Source: Clostridiales bacterium (GTDB lineage: Bacteria; Bacillota; Clostridia; Christensenellales; Borkfalkiaceae). From it: a DNA stretch of 64,000 bases. Below the pieces are notes generated by a model. That model ran no database searches and was not told the DNA's origin. It saw only the letters and a program-made list of their open reading frames with translations. The stretch lies in contig SVHG01000003.1 of assembly GCA_015055965.1 (NCBI GenBank), forward strand, positions 1-64,000, in the 5' to 3' direction. The first letter of the stretch is position 1. Each line of letters starts with the position of its first letter. Of this stretch, positions 24,677 to 30,762 are shown in pieces. Both the position numbers and the translations under genes were made by a program.

Positions 24677-24811
24677 GCTACATATTTTAATATGCCTTTT
24701 CATAGGGAATACTGTTGGTAAAAATGTATTCTCTCCCTTATGATTAGGTAAAATATGTAGCAATATTGAGAGATGCGTTTTTTGGCGTATCCCTCGTGGG
24801 TACGCTTTTTT
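24677..24811 (+). ncRNA. Structured leader RNA with terminator/antiterminator (orphan riboswitch or attenuator candidate)
   Basis: The 5' leader begins with GCTACATATTTTA (24677-24689), which pairs perfectly over 13 bp with TAAAATATGTAGC (24749-24761). Inside it is a second hairpin (24701-24742; GGGAATAC against GTATTC...CCC, 13-nt loop). Downstream, GCGTATCCC-TCGT-GGGTACGC plus six T (24785-24811) is an intrinsic terminator 3 nt before the Shine-Dalgarno of the lipoprotein gene. GAGAGATGCG (24768-24777) can instead pair with CGTATCCCTC (24786-24795), the same bases as the terminator's left arm. I could not match it to purine, SAM, T-box, c-di-GMP or other classes I know. An independent terminated sRNA of about 135 nt is the alternative. 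Confidence 0.6.
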
Positions 24812-24825
24812 ATTGGAGATTACTT

Positions 24826-27447
24826 ATGAAAAAATCGTTGATTATTACAATATGTATAATTATGTTACTTTTCTTAGTGAGTTGTAGTAATAATGATGAA
24901 ACATCTTTGAAATGTTTAAATTGCGGCGAAACAGTTGCCCTTGATACTAAATTCTGCCCACAGTGTGGTGAAACAATTCTAGATAGTTCTAATGATAACA
25001 ACAATGATGAACAATGTTCACATAGTTGGAATGTAGCTACTTGCATAATTCCTAAAACTTGTTCTAAATGCGGAGAAACGGAGGGTAACGCATTAGGTCA
25101 TACCACGACTACGGGAGTTTGTGACAGATGTAATGTAAGGCAAGGATGGACGCAAGACGAAGTTCGGTCACTGATAAAGGTATATGATATTTTTGTAACT
25201 GATATAGATAGTGCTGATGGTGTGGATATGACTATTTCTTGGGAAAATACATCATCAAAAACTATAAAATATATTTATTTTTCAGTTGAAGCTTATAATG
25301 CAGTTCATGATAAAGTTTATTGTGAAATACGTGGCTATAATGTTTTTATAGGGTCAATTACTGGTCCTCTTGAACCTGGATATTCTAATTTAATTTATGA
25401 CTCAAATAAAGATGAATATTTTATTGATGGTGGTTGGGAAAATTGTTATTATAACTCCGATATAAAATATTTTGATTTAACTAATATTCGCATTATCTAT
25501 ATGGATAACACCGAGATTGAGATTGGAAAAGGTTGGTGTGATTATTCCTTATCAGATGTTCCTCAGGGGGTCTATTATACTTGGAGTGATGAATATAACG
25601 GATATGAAGTTAATTATAGATTGAAGAAGACTTGCACAGACACACACATATCCATCCCATCAACATATAACGGGGACAAGGTTGTTTCTATTGCAAATAA
25701 AGGATTTAGTAATTTATCTTCTCTTATAACTATTACTCTCCCTAATACTATTAAATATATCGGCGAAAGCGCTTTTGCCTCTTGCACATCACTTACAAGT
25801 ATAGAACTCCCCGAAAATCTAACAGATATCGGCGAAAGCGCTTTTTTTGGTTGTGATACGCTAAAAAGTATAACGATCACTGATAGAATATCAATCATCA
25901 AAGATTGGACTTTTTATGGCTGTGATTCGCTTGTGAATGTGAATATGCCCGATGGAGTAACCGCTATAGGTCAATACGCGTTTTCTAACTGTAGTTCGCT
26001 AACAAATATTACCATTCCCAATAGTGTTACTGACATTGGTTATAATGCATTTCATGACACGCATATTGAAATTGCTTCAATTCCAGCTTCGGCTATATAT
26101 GATATAAAGAATGATAAATTAAAAAAAGTCGTTATTACAAGTGGAGATGTTATCGAGGGATTTAGAAACTGTATTTCTCTTACATCGGTTATCATTCCAA
26201 ATGGTGTTACAAAGATAGATTACGATGCGTTTGAAGGATGTACGTCGCTTGAAAGTATCACCATTCCAAACACGGTAATAAGTATTGAATCTGATGCCTT
26301 TAAAAACTGTGATTCATTAACAACAATTGATATTCCGAGTAATGTTACAACTATAGGACATGGTGCCTTTGAATGCTGTGATTCTTTGATAACAGCAAAA
26401 ATTTCGGGCGATTATTTAAGTATAGGTTCCTCTGCATTTAGTGAGTGTCCCCTACTAACAGAAGTTAGTATTTTCAAGGGTGTTGAAAGTATTGGTAGTA
26501 TGTCCTTTGCAGACTGTCCTTCATTGAAAAGTGTATATATTTCAGATAGTGTTCAATATATAAGTGGTTATGCTTTTCATGGTTGTATGCTATTGACTAT
26601 TTATTGTGAAACGAACAATGAATTGAGTGGATGGGATGAGGACTGGAATTATGTAGAGTATGATTATGGATATATATATGCTCCTGTTGTTTGGGGATAT
26701 ACACAAGAAGCAGATACGTTGAAATATTCACTTTCGGATGATGGGACGTATTACATTGTGACAGGTATAGGTTCATATTCTAACACGAATTTAGTGATTC
26801 CTGAAGCTTATAAAGAAAAGCCAATTAAAGAAATCGGAGAATCAGCTTTCGAGTATAATACATCAATAAAAACAGTAGAGATTCCTAACGGGATTGTAAA
26901 AATCGGGGATTCTGCATTTTATTCTTGTAAAAATATTGAAAGCATTAATATTTCTGATGGTGTTATTGACATAGGAGCATGGACTTTCAAAGATTGCTCA
27001 AAATTGATTGAAATTGTAATTCCAAATAGTGTAGCAAGTATCGGCAGCTGTGCTTTTAGCGGATGTAATTCACTTGTAAGCATAGTAGTTGATTCAAACA
27101 ATACAATTTACAAATCAATATCGGGCAATTTATATTCTAAAGATGGCAAAATTCTTATTCAATATGCCATTGGCAAACAAGAATTAGCATTTAGAGTCCC
27201 CGAAACAGTAACGACAATTAACGACTATGCATTCCTTCTTTGCGAAAACCTTAGCAAAGTTATTATATTAGATAATATCACAACCATTGGATGCGATGCA
27301 TTTAATGGTTGTGTAAATCTAACCATTTACTGTGCCACAAGTAACAAACACGCTGGATGGGATACATATTGGAATTATTGTTTCGAACATAAAAATGGTA
27401 CAGACTATTGCACTGTGATTTGGAACTATAATGAATCAATATCATAA
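24826..27447 (+). CDS. BspA-like leucine-rich-repeat surface lipoprotein with zinc ribbon
   Basis: This 873-residue protein starts with a lipoprotein signal peptide; the lipobox is LVSC with Cys near residue 20. A zinc ribbon (CLNCGE then CPQCGE, residues about 29-50) and a second cysteine-rich stretch with CSKCGE and CDRCN follow. Residues about 110-240 form a beta-rich domain of unknown type. The rest consists of many LRR_5/Treponema-BspA repeats (pattern ITIPNxVxxIGxxAFxxCxSL). Such proteins face the outside and often bind host or other bacterial surfaces. The ATG at 24826 follows GGAG; the frame start at 24766 lies in the leader RNA. Codon context suggests acquisition by transfer. Confidence 0.88.
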   Translation: MKKSLIITICIIMLLFLVSCSNNDETSLKCLNCGETVALDTKFCPQCGETILDSSNDNNNDEQCSHSWNVATCIIPKTCSKCGETEGNALGHTTTTGVCDRCNVRQGWTQDEVRSLIKVYDIFVTDIDSADGVDMTISWENTSSKTIKYIYFSVEAYNAVHDKVYCEIRGYNVFIGSITGPLEPGYSNLIYDSNKDEYFIDGGWENCYYNSDIKYFDLTNIRIIYMDNTEIEIGKGWCDYSLSDVPQGVYYTWSDEYNGYEVNYRLKKTCTDTHISIPSTYNGDKVVSIANKGFSNLSSLITITLPNTIKYIGESAFASCTSLTSIELPENLTDIGESAFFGCDTLKSITITDRISIIKDWTFYGCDSLVNVNMPDGVTAIGQYAFSNCSSLTNITIPNSVTDIGYNAFHDTHIEIASIPASAIYDIKNDKLKKVVITSGDVIEGFRNCISLTSVIIPNGVTKIDYDAFEGCTSLESITIPNTVISIESDAFKNCDSLTTIDIPSNVTTIGHGAFECCDSLITAKISGDYLSIGSSAFSECPLLTEVSIFKGVESIGSMSFADCPSLKSVYISDSVQYISGYAFHGCMLLTIYCETNNELSGWDEDWNYVEYDYGYIYAPVVWGYTQEADTLKYSLSDDGTYYIVTGIGSYSNTNLVIPEAYKEKPIKEIGESAFEYNTSIKTVEIPNGIVKIGDSAFYSCKNIESINISDGVIDIGAWTFKDCSKLIEIVIPNSVASIGSCAFSGCNSLVSIVVDSNNTIYKSISGNLYSKDGKILIQYAIGKQELAFRVPETVTTINDYAFLLCENLSKVIILDNITTIGCDAFNGCVNLTIYCATSNKHAGWDTYWNYCFEHKNGTDYCTVIWNYNESIS

Positions 27448-28378: not shown

Positions 28379-29233
28379 TTATAACACCTTACTTAAAAAA
28401 TCCTGCAACCTTGCGGATTTAGGTTTACTAAAAATCTCTTCAGGCATACCGTCTTCTAAAATTTTTCCATCAGCCATGAACACCACTCGATTTGAAACGC
28501 TTTTTGCAAATTCCATTTCATGCGTAACAACTATCATCGTCATTCCAGACTTAGCAAGATCACTCATTACAGCCAAGACCTCTCCAACCATTTCAGGATC
28601 TAAAGCACTAGTAGGCTCGTCAAACAGCATAACGTCGGGCTTCATAGCTAAAGCGCGAACTATAGCAACTCTTTGCTTTTGCCCACCTGATAAAACTGAA
28701 GGATATTTATTTGCATATTCTTCAAGACCAACCTTTTTAAGTAGCTCTAAAGCCCTTTCTTCTGCATCTGTCTTTTTTATCTTTTTAAGTGAAACAGGCG
28801 CAATAGTTAAATTTTCTAACACGGTCAAATGCGGAAATAGATTAAACTGTTGAAACACCATACCGATATGACATCTAATTTCATTTAAACTTTTACTAAC
28901 AACTTTATCTATTTGATGCTCTTCATGACGTATTTTAGCAATTTTATTATATAATTCATTGTATTCAGGTGTTCCTACCTTATATTCGCGTATATCTCTT
29001 TTTAAAAAATATCGTTCGTTTTTATATAAATACTTACCGTCAAATATAATCTCACCTGCATCAGGCATTTCCAATAAGTTTATACAGCGCAATAAGGTTG
29101 ACTTTCCACAACCGGAAGGCCCTATTATAGAAATAACGTCACCTTTATTTACAGAAAAATCTACCCCCTGTAAAACCTTTTGATTCCCAAACTGCTTGTG
29201 CAAACGTTTGACTTTTATAATTTGATTATCCAT
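28379..29233 (-). CDS. Polar amino-acid ABC transporter ATP-binding protein (GlnQ-like)
   Basis: This 284-residue ATPase has Walker [11 protein letters not shown]-loop GMVFQQ, signature LSGGQKQR, Walker [13 protein letters not shown] and the H-loop VTHEM. Normal GlnQ-type ATPases have about 240 residues; this one carries about 45 extra, charged residues between Walker A and the Q-loop (about residues 65-115, including [15 protein letters not shown]). The start at 29233 overlaps the permease stop by 8 bp; an alternative GTG lies at 29254. It completes an SBP-permease-ATPase operon. Confidence 0.93.
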
Positions 29234-29921
29234 TGTTAGCCATTCTCCTTTCACACAATTTTATTAAAGCAGTTATTATCATAACAAGGCCAAGATAAAT
29301 TAGCGCTAGCATGATATATGGAATAAAATAATCGTACGTGCTTTCCGCAATAGCAGTTAATGAACGGGTTAAATCTGTAACAGCAATTAAGTTTGCAACC
29401 GAGGTTTCCTTGATTAAAGCAATAAATTCATTACCTAAAGTGGGTAAAATATTCTTAATTGCTTGAGGTAGAACTATTTTAATCATTGTTTGAACGAAAG
29501 AAAAGCCCAACGCTCTGCCAGCTTCCATTTGCCCTTTATCAACCGAATTAATTCCACCTCTTAACGCCTCAGCCATATACGCGCTACTATTAATACCGTA
29601 AATTATAACGGCTTCCGCAAGATAACTTATGTTTATTCCCATTAAAGGGAAAATTGCAAAATGAAAAAGTAGTAATTGCACAAGCAAAGGTGTACCTCTT
29701 ATAATAGTTACGTATACTTCGCAAATTATATTTATACCCTTTTTCCAACCTTTATTTGAGGGAATAAGCTTTACAGTCGTTATAATAACACCTATTAAAA
29801 AACCTATAATTAAGCCTAAAATAGAAATAATTATAGTATTTTTCAATCCTTGAAGGGTTAAAAGATATCCTTCTTGACGTATAAATTTATCTATAAAAAT
29901 TTCAATCGTTTCTCTATTCAT
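29226..29921 (-). CDS. Polar amino-acid ABC transporter permease (HisM/GlnP family)
   Basis: This 231-residue membrane protein has about five hydrophobic helices. [17 protein letters not shown] begins the family core, and the EAA loop reads [23 protein letters not shown], which contacts the ATPase. It lies 7 bp from the binding-protein gene and overlaps the ATPase gene. It moves the amino acid through the cytoplasmic membrane. Confidence 0.94.
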
Positions 29922-29928
29922 TATATAC

Positions 29929-30762
29929 CTATTTATTAGTATTTATTGCCTTTACTATTTCCAACGCCGGCTGATAATCCAAAATAACTGCATCAATTTT
30001 ACCGTTTGATAAATCTCTAATAGCTAAAGCTGCTGTTGTAAAAGCTATTACGTCTATGCGGGCAAACCCTTTATATCCAAAACCGGAATCCCCCCTTATG
30101 TACATATAGCCCGTTGTTCCGCTTTGCGCCCCTATTTTATAGGAGCTTCTTTTAGTTGCTAAAATTGCTTCAATTTCTAAATTACTAAAAGATTGATCAA
30201 ATTCACAATTACTTTCTCTAACCACCAAAACTTGTGAAGACTGATAATATTCCATGCTAAAATCAACTAAACGCCTACGGTCTTCATTAATAGTTAATCC
30301 CGCCATTCCTATATCGCAATTACCCTTTTGAACGCTTGGAATTACAGCGCTAAAATCCATATCCTCAACGTACAAGCTTTTCCCTAAAGTCTTTGCTATT
30401 TCATTAGCCAAATAAATATCTATACCGGTAAGTTTATTCCCATTATAATATTCAAAAGGTGGGAAATACGCGTTTGTCGCAACTACCAAACAGCCCTCTT
30501 TGCTTTTAGGATTAACGTGCGCAAAATCTGCTTTTCCGTTAAAAAAGGAATTGATAATCGCCTCCAATTCCCCGTTTTCTGTTATTTCGTTTAAATAAGC
30601 GTTAACAGCATTTTTTATTTCATTATTCTCTTTAGCAATTGCAAAGGCATAAGATTCTTGCGTTAACGGAACGTTAATAATCTTTACTCTTTCTGCTTCT
30701 ATACCGCAACCGCTTGAAATTACCAAAATTACTGTTAATAATAAAATTATAACTCGTTTCAT
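29929..30762 (-). CDS. Amino-acid-binding lipoprotein (SBP_bac_3), circularly permuted
   Basis: This is the solute-binding subunit of the transporter, with a signal peptide and lipid-anchor Cys near residue 19 (ISSGC). The usual family order is inverted. Residues about 28-75 (VPLTQESYAFAIAKENNEI and NAYLNEITENGELEAIINSFF) match the C-terminal end of SBP_bac_3 proteins. Only from about residue 88 does the normal N-terminal start appear (CLVVATNAYFPPFEYYNG), then GIDIYLANEIAKTLGK, DIGMAGLTINEDRR and LVDFS. The protein ends at GKIDAVILDYQPALEIV, exactly where normal members continue into the segment found here at the N-terminus. The start at 30762 is preferred to the TTG at 30774. Confidence 0.85.
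   Translation of the reverse strand: MKRVIILLLTVILVISSGCGIEAERVKIINVPLTQESYAFAIAKENNEIKNAVNAYLNEITENGELEAIINSFFNGKADFAHVNPKSKEGCLVVATNAYFPPFEYYNGNKLTGIDIYLANEIAKTLGKSLYVEDMDFSAVIPSVQKGNCDIGMAGLTINEDRRRLVDFSMEYYQSSQVLVVRESNCEFDQSFSNLEIEAILATKRSSYKIGAQSGTTGYMYIRGDSGFGYKGFARIDVIAFTTAALAIRDLSNGKIDAVILDYQPALEIVKAINTNK

Follow-up and report, generated by a model that had tools for sequence, protein, structure and literature searches.

The SBP_bac_3 family provides the textbook example of a receptor with two lobes, and its members are often used as scaffolds for biosensors. A gene in the window analysed here (the whole 64,000-nucleotide stretch of DNA) raises the question of whether such a receptor can also occur in nature with the segments of its fold in rotated order, and whether it would still serve an importer. 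It is argued below that the product of this gene is very probably a functional lipoprotein that binds the substrate for an ABC importer of polar amino acids and has a circularly permuted SBP_bac_3 fold, the permutation having probably come about via tandem duplication. Judged from the sequences collected, the arrangement is not a single case but is shared by a family that is widespread and in which the cut lies at several different points.

The gene and its parts

The gene, its segments and its partners occupy the following positions:

29929-30762, minus strand: permuted SBP_bac_3 lipoprotein gene, 277 amino acids (from reading frame and homology)
30706-30762, minus strand: lipoprotein signal peptide with lipobox Cys19 (VISSGC), from the sequence; pLDDT is low over residues 1-20
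30535-30687, minus strand: D1b, residues 26-76, the C-terminal segment in normal members (canonical profile h190-242, 36.9 bits; 4zv1 residues 183-231)
30493-30534, minus strand: new linker, residues 77-90, connecting the former C- and N-termini (from type A relatives and the 6h30 alignment)
30235-30492, minus strand: D1a, residues 91-176, the part of lobe 1 that is N-terminal in normal members, reaching as far as the first hinge (from homology)
29932-30234, minus strand: D2, which is lobe 2, residues 177-277; the chain ends at its last helix (from homology, the model and the 6gpm match)
29226-29921, minus strand: cognate amino-acid ABC permease of the His/Glu/Gln/Arg/opine type (PF00528 and TIGR01726)
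28379-29254, minus strand: cognate polar-amino-acid ABC ATPase, GlnQ-like, overlapping the end of the permease gene (from profile matches)

Segment D1b is made up of the second hinge strand and the last two helices of lobe 1. Elsewhere in the window (24766-27447, plus strand) lies a large lipoprotein-like open reading frame whose start resembles a zinc ribbon and which contains leucine-rich repeats of a BspA-like kind.

Order of the fold segments

The preliminary description had placed the segment that normally ends such proteins at the N-terminus, just after the lipid anchor, with the normal N-terminal opening near residue 88 and the chain stopping where normal members continue. All three statements agree with the results of phmmer against the PDB, the boundaries lying within a few residues. 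Residues 88-272 matched residues 8-177 of 4zv1 and residues 26-74 matched residues 183-231 of the same chain; together, the two matches cover the whole fold in rotated order. The C-terminal part reaches only as far as residue 177 of the roughly 230 canonical residues.

The same order was recovered with a canonical profile built from 18 canonical relatives. The natural protein matched h190-242 first, with residues 26-76 (36.9 bits, i-E about 1e-8 at Z = 100,000), and then h23-188 (188.6 bits), and every segment of the fold is therefore present, namely the front of lobe 1, lobe 2 and the back of lobe 1. When the mature protein was aligned as a doubled sequence, as had been suggested, a single unbroken match over h23-242 was obtained (231.8 bits), and exchanging the two parts in silico gave a single continuous match over the same positions (235.5 bits). 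The NCBIfam GlnH model behaved in the same way, with two stretches for the natural sequence (113.7 bits) and a continuous one for the doubled sequence (18-244 of 248). One continuous match in the canonical GlnH/HisJ segment order, the result that would speak against a permutation, was found neither with phmmer against the PDB nor with the canonical profile. Sequence comparison confirms the 277-residue lipoprotein as a circularly permuted SBP_bac_3 protein, the rotated order lying far beyond chance.

Predicted fold

AlphaFold2, supplied with an alignment of 19 permuted relatives, gave a confident bilobed fold (mean pLDDT 88.7, pTM 0.77) in which only the signal peptide was disordered. The N-terminal segment was modelled with confidence (pLDDT ~89-97) as the hinge strand and two helices (residues 47-62 and 65-74), and a strand with two helices is what the end of lobe 1 predicts. 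Lobe 1 of the model fits the isolated domain 1 of TmArgBP (6y16; 90 residues, rmsd 1.4) and lobe 2 the isolated domain 2 (6gpm; 80 residues, Z 10.8, rmsd 1.6). The structure searches used are sequential and unable to score a permuted match; in these, model residues ~89-276 were placed on canonical residues up to ~177, where the alignment stopped. No solved structure with the order of the window protein (type A) was found, and the only solved chain matched continuously is the tandem GlnPQ (6h30), in which the match runs across the interdomain linker.

On the basis of the confidence scores and homology, residues 26-76 are predicted to pack against residues 91-176. They could in principle pack on lobe 1 of a neighbouring molecule to give a domain-swapped dimeric receptor; domain swapping is known for TmArgBP, which is among the closest solved relatives. 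Such a swap is nevertheless considered unlikely, since a linker of 13-18 residues, enough for packing in cis, is kept in nearly all relatives and the single-chain model is confident.

Operon and ligand residues

The genes follow each other in the order SBP-permease-ATPase, the permease and the ATPase both being of the polar-amino-acid type, and the permease start codon lies 7 bases past the SBP stop codon. A permease of this type is found directly downstream in 63 of the 66 type A loci. The recognition positions tested were the Thr and Arg of GxTxxxxR, the Thr of GTTG and the Asp after the last strand of lobe 2; the corresponding residues T157, R162, T216/T217 and D262 were invariant in the alignment of 19 relatives. 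These correspond to the positions that hold the carboxylate and the amino group of the amino acid in GlnH and LAO. The protein is likely to be the binding protein of a polar-amino-acid importer, and its ligand would probably belong to this class. A role as a sensor or scavenger in place of the importer's binding protein is very improbable, given the 7-base spacing to the permease, the shared operon with the ATPase and the existence of relatives that are directly fused to the permease.

In the ATPase (28379-29254, minus strand), the stretch from Walker A to the Q-loop is about 40 residues longer than usual (78 compared with 38). Inserts of varying length at this place also occur at other loci, in ATPases beside some type A and some canonical SBPs.

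Recognition by domain searches

With PF00497 (SBP_bac_3), the protein scores 110.2 bits against a gathering cut-off of 26.4, and the best and main stretch in the sequential Pfam search comprises residues 92-185 of 277. Seen alone, the sequential search would suit a reading in which the N-terminal residues 28-75 are a separate added domain and the remainder is a complete or degenerate SBP. This reading deserves hardly any credence: the C-terminal part is incomplete without residues 28-75, its match breaking off at canonical residue 177 with the last 50 residues missing; precisely these 50 are what the N-terminal segment matches (36.9 bits), and the doubled sequence gives one full match. Order-dependent domain tools detect permuted proteins only partly, and topology-aware annotation would be needed.

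Distribution and cut types

The search for homologues in the same order, which had also been advised, yielded more than 60 retrieved loci of type A, all from Clostridia. These relatives have intact frames, share about 40-55% identity and come from many families; full-length searches found the same order in metagenome assemblies of Clostridia, in near relatives as well as in distant ones. The spread was counted in whole genomes with a junction profile (A1, E <= 1e-15), which found matches in 80 of 396 genomes of the order, 99 of 391 of the class and 17 of 398 of the phylum. By row count, the complete junction is present in about 65 of the 391 class genomes, either in a frame as long as one receptor or in a fusion with a permease. 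The viral contigs searched contained no relatives, and in a plasmid collection no permuted member was present among the best 15 records listed; a Vescimonas record of this collection (L139), checked by profile, was canonical.

The window's genome is a draft of 21 contigs, but the prospect that the gene is an assembly chimera or a decayed fragment is negligible, since more than 60 relatives of the same order at about 40-55% identity occur in many families, some of them in single-contig genomes (L124, L129), which excludes misassembly, and since the frames are intact and the ligand residues conserved.

Three cut points were recognized among all classified retrieved frames. In type A the cut lies at profile position ~189, at the point where the chain leaves lobe 2 for the hinge, and lobe 2 of these proteins is enlarged by an insertion of about 15-20 residues. 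In type B (29 labelled frames, examples being Ruminococcus L055 and L057 and Lachnospiraceae L050) it lies at ~118-131, and in type C (L096, L099 and L102) at ~148, both inside lobe 2; the hosts of these two types are other Clostridia and related Bacillota. The new termini of all three types are thus in lobe 2 or at its hinge. A lobe-2 bias of the cuts is not proven, and the restriction to lobe 2 is partly a detection effect because the junction profile A1 detects cuts more readily when they lie outside lobe 1.

The window's genome has just one further SBP_bac_3 gene (L002, G000:C3 near 98173), which has type B order and gives a weaker match; this second gene on contig C3 also precedes a permease. 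No canonical SBP_bac_3 member was found in the window's own genome, which seems to be without one.

Origin of the permutation

Permuted receptors fused to a permease were found in type A (L007/L047, L029 and L082) as well as in type B (L059 and L094). A 754-residue frame (L097:445-2709) comprises two receptor units in type B order followed by a permease; its fold is ambiguous and could consist either of two type B domains or of one canonical domain with a half on each side. Two type A genes are adjacent in L040, and L098 is a canonical tandem, which was left out of the tested tree. Such fused, double and neighbouring receptors are the kinds of intermediates expected if the permutation started from a tandem duplication whose two ends were then trimmed. 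The linker between the old termini mostly has 13-20 residues (13-28 across all type A relatives), and the alignment of residues 37-268 of the window protein runs nearly gap-free through the SBD1-SBD2 linker in GlnPQ (6h30). A tandem-duplication origin is likely: of two tandem SBP units, arranged as in GlnPQ, the first would have lost its front and the second its back. The permutation would then have become fixed in Clostridia, and it would either have occurred more than once or have been re-cut to give types A, B and C.

The history was examined with quick trees (treekit) of re-ordered sequences. The most economical history on the tree has 11 changes of topology, or 8 without the long-branched rows. 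A single clade of all permuted proteins was rejected (AU p = 4e-4; 0.0018 without long branches), as were a single type B clade (AU p = 8e-7) and a single type A clade (AU p = 1.5e-4). An independent type A origin looked likely on the tree for L135, which has type A order and lies among canonical sequences, but it was not significant (p = 0.17). The separation of two other type B groups was not significant either (p = 0.15). The number of independent events is uncertain because neither of these separations reached significance, and reversals to the canonical order are possible. Eight type B proteins (L015, L026, L066, L068, L072, L077, L086 and L089) group inside the type A clade, and comparison by eye showed that L015 and L026 share the type A lobe-2 insertion; one permutation appears here to have been converted into another.

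Placement of the lipid anchor

According to the explanation favoured here, the break in the chain would lie at the boundary of lobe 2 with its return hinge, and about 14 linker residues would connect the former C- and N-termini. Lobe 1 would in this way become one continuous stretch and both termini would come to lie at the lobe-2/hinge site. Because both termini are there, the lipid anchor and, in fused relatives, the permease would be attached at lobe 2 and not at lobe 1. The earlier proposal that the anchor has moved to a different surface of the fold holds in this form, as the lobe-2/hinge side follows from the position of the cut. The distance from Cys19 to the folded part is about 4-6 residues in the window protein; from the lipidated Cys to the fold, permuted proteins have a median of 4-7 residues, compared with a median of 15 and a longer and more variable spacing in the canonical sample.

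The side of the anchor may matter for docking to the importer; just as possibly, the arrangement is a neutral consequence of tandem duplication. It can be entertained only tentatively, and is on the whole doubtful, that lobe-2-side permutation took place repeatedly and independently in Clostridia with lobe-2 attachment of the anchor or permease improving or altering the docking. If this were true, it would represent a recurrent adaptive route via tandem receptor fusions. A large set of natural permutants with three cut points can serve as a probe of receptor evolution, of the role of lobe order in folding and transport and of the control of docking by the anchored lobe, and the natural permutants are ready-made for sensor design.

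Comparison with known systems

With the SBPs of the GlnH/HisJ/ArgBP type (PF00497; AncQR 4zv1 and TmArgBP 4prs), the window protein shares both lobes, the hinge segments, the recognition residues, the lipoprotein signal and the permease and ATPase partners. It differs from them in that the last ~50 residues of the fold come first and that the termini are at lobe 2 and not at lobe 1; type A proteins also have the extra lobe-2 insertion of ~15-20 residues. The tandem SBD1-SBD2 permease GlnPQ (6h30) has a similar linker and is a plausible ancestral architecture. GlnPQ, however, has two complete domains in normal order fused to the permease, whereas the window protein is one rotated domain with the permease encoded by a separate gene.

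The type B model (pLDDT 80.4) has its best sequential structural match in the glycine-betaine-binding protein OpuAC (2b4l; Z 12.6, 199 residues), with the same chain connectivity at the level of the fold. OpuAC belongs to a different family (12% identity), so that the match is not evidence of common origin, and the type A window protein shows no such likeness. In the portions of the literature covered by the search, no statement on permutation of OpuAC or ProX was found.

The preliminary description knew of no natural circular permutation in the family. For SBP_bac_3 itself this stands within the open-access library searched, in which none was found, and the family is not mentioned in the main text of the recent CIRPIN permutation survey. 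A different class of SBP does provide an example. The sugar-binding lipoprotein TpMglB-2 of Treponema pallidum ('Type Ic / Cluster Bc') is a natural circular permutation with relatives in treponemes and Gram-positives, and its authors also speculated about anchoring (PMC4990184). Permutation of SBPs as such is hence already known, and the SBP_bac_3 cases with at least three cut points are, as far as could be found, apparently undescribed. TpMglB-2 and the window protein have in common that they are naturally permuted, lipid-anchored SBPs. They differ in that TpMglB-2 has the Type I/cluster B sugar-binding fold, an unrelated sequence and a different cut site, while the Pfam, NCBIfam and PDB matches of the window protein are all to PF00497-type amino-acid SBPs; moreover, the permuted part is poorly conserved in TpMglB-2 and clearly homologous in the SBP_bac_3 protein.
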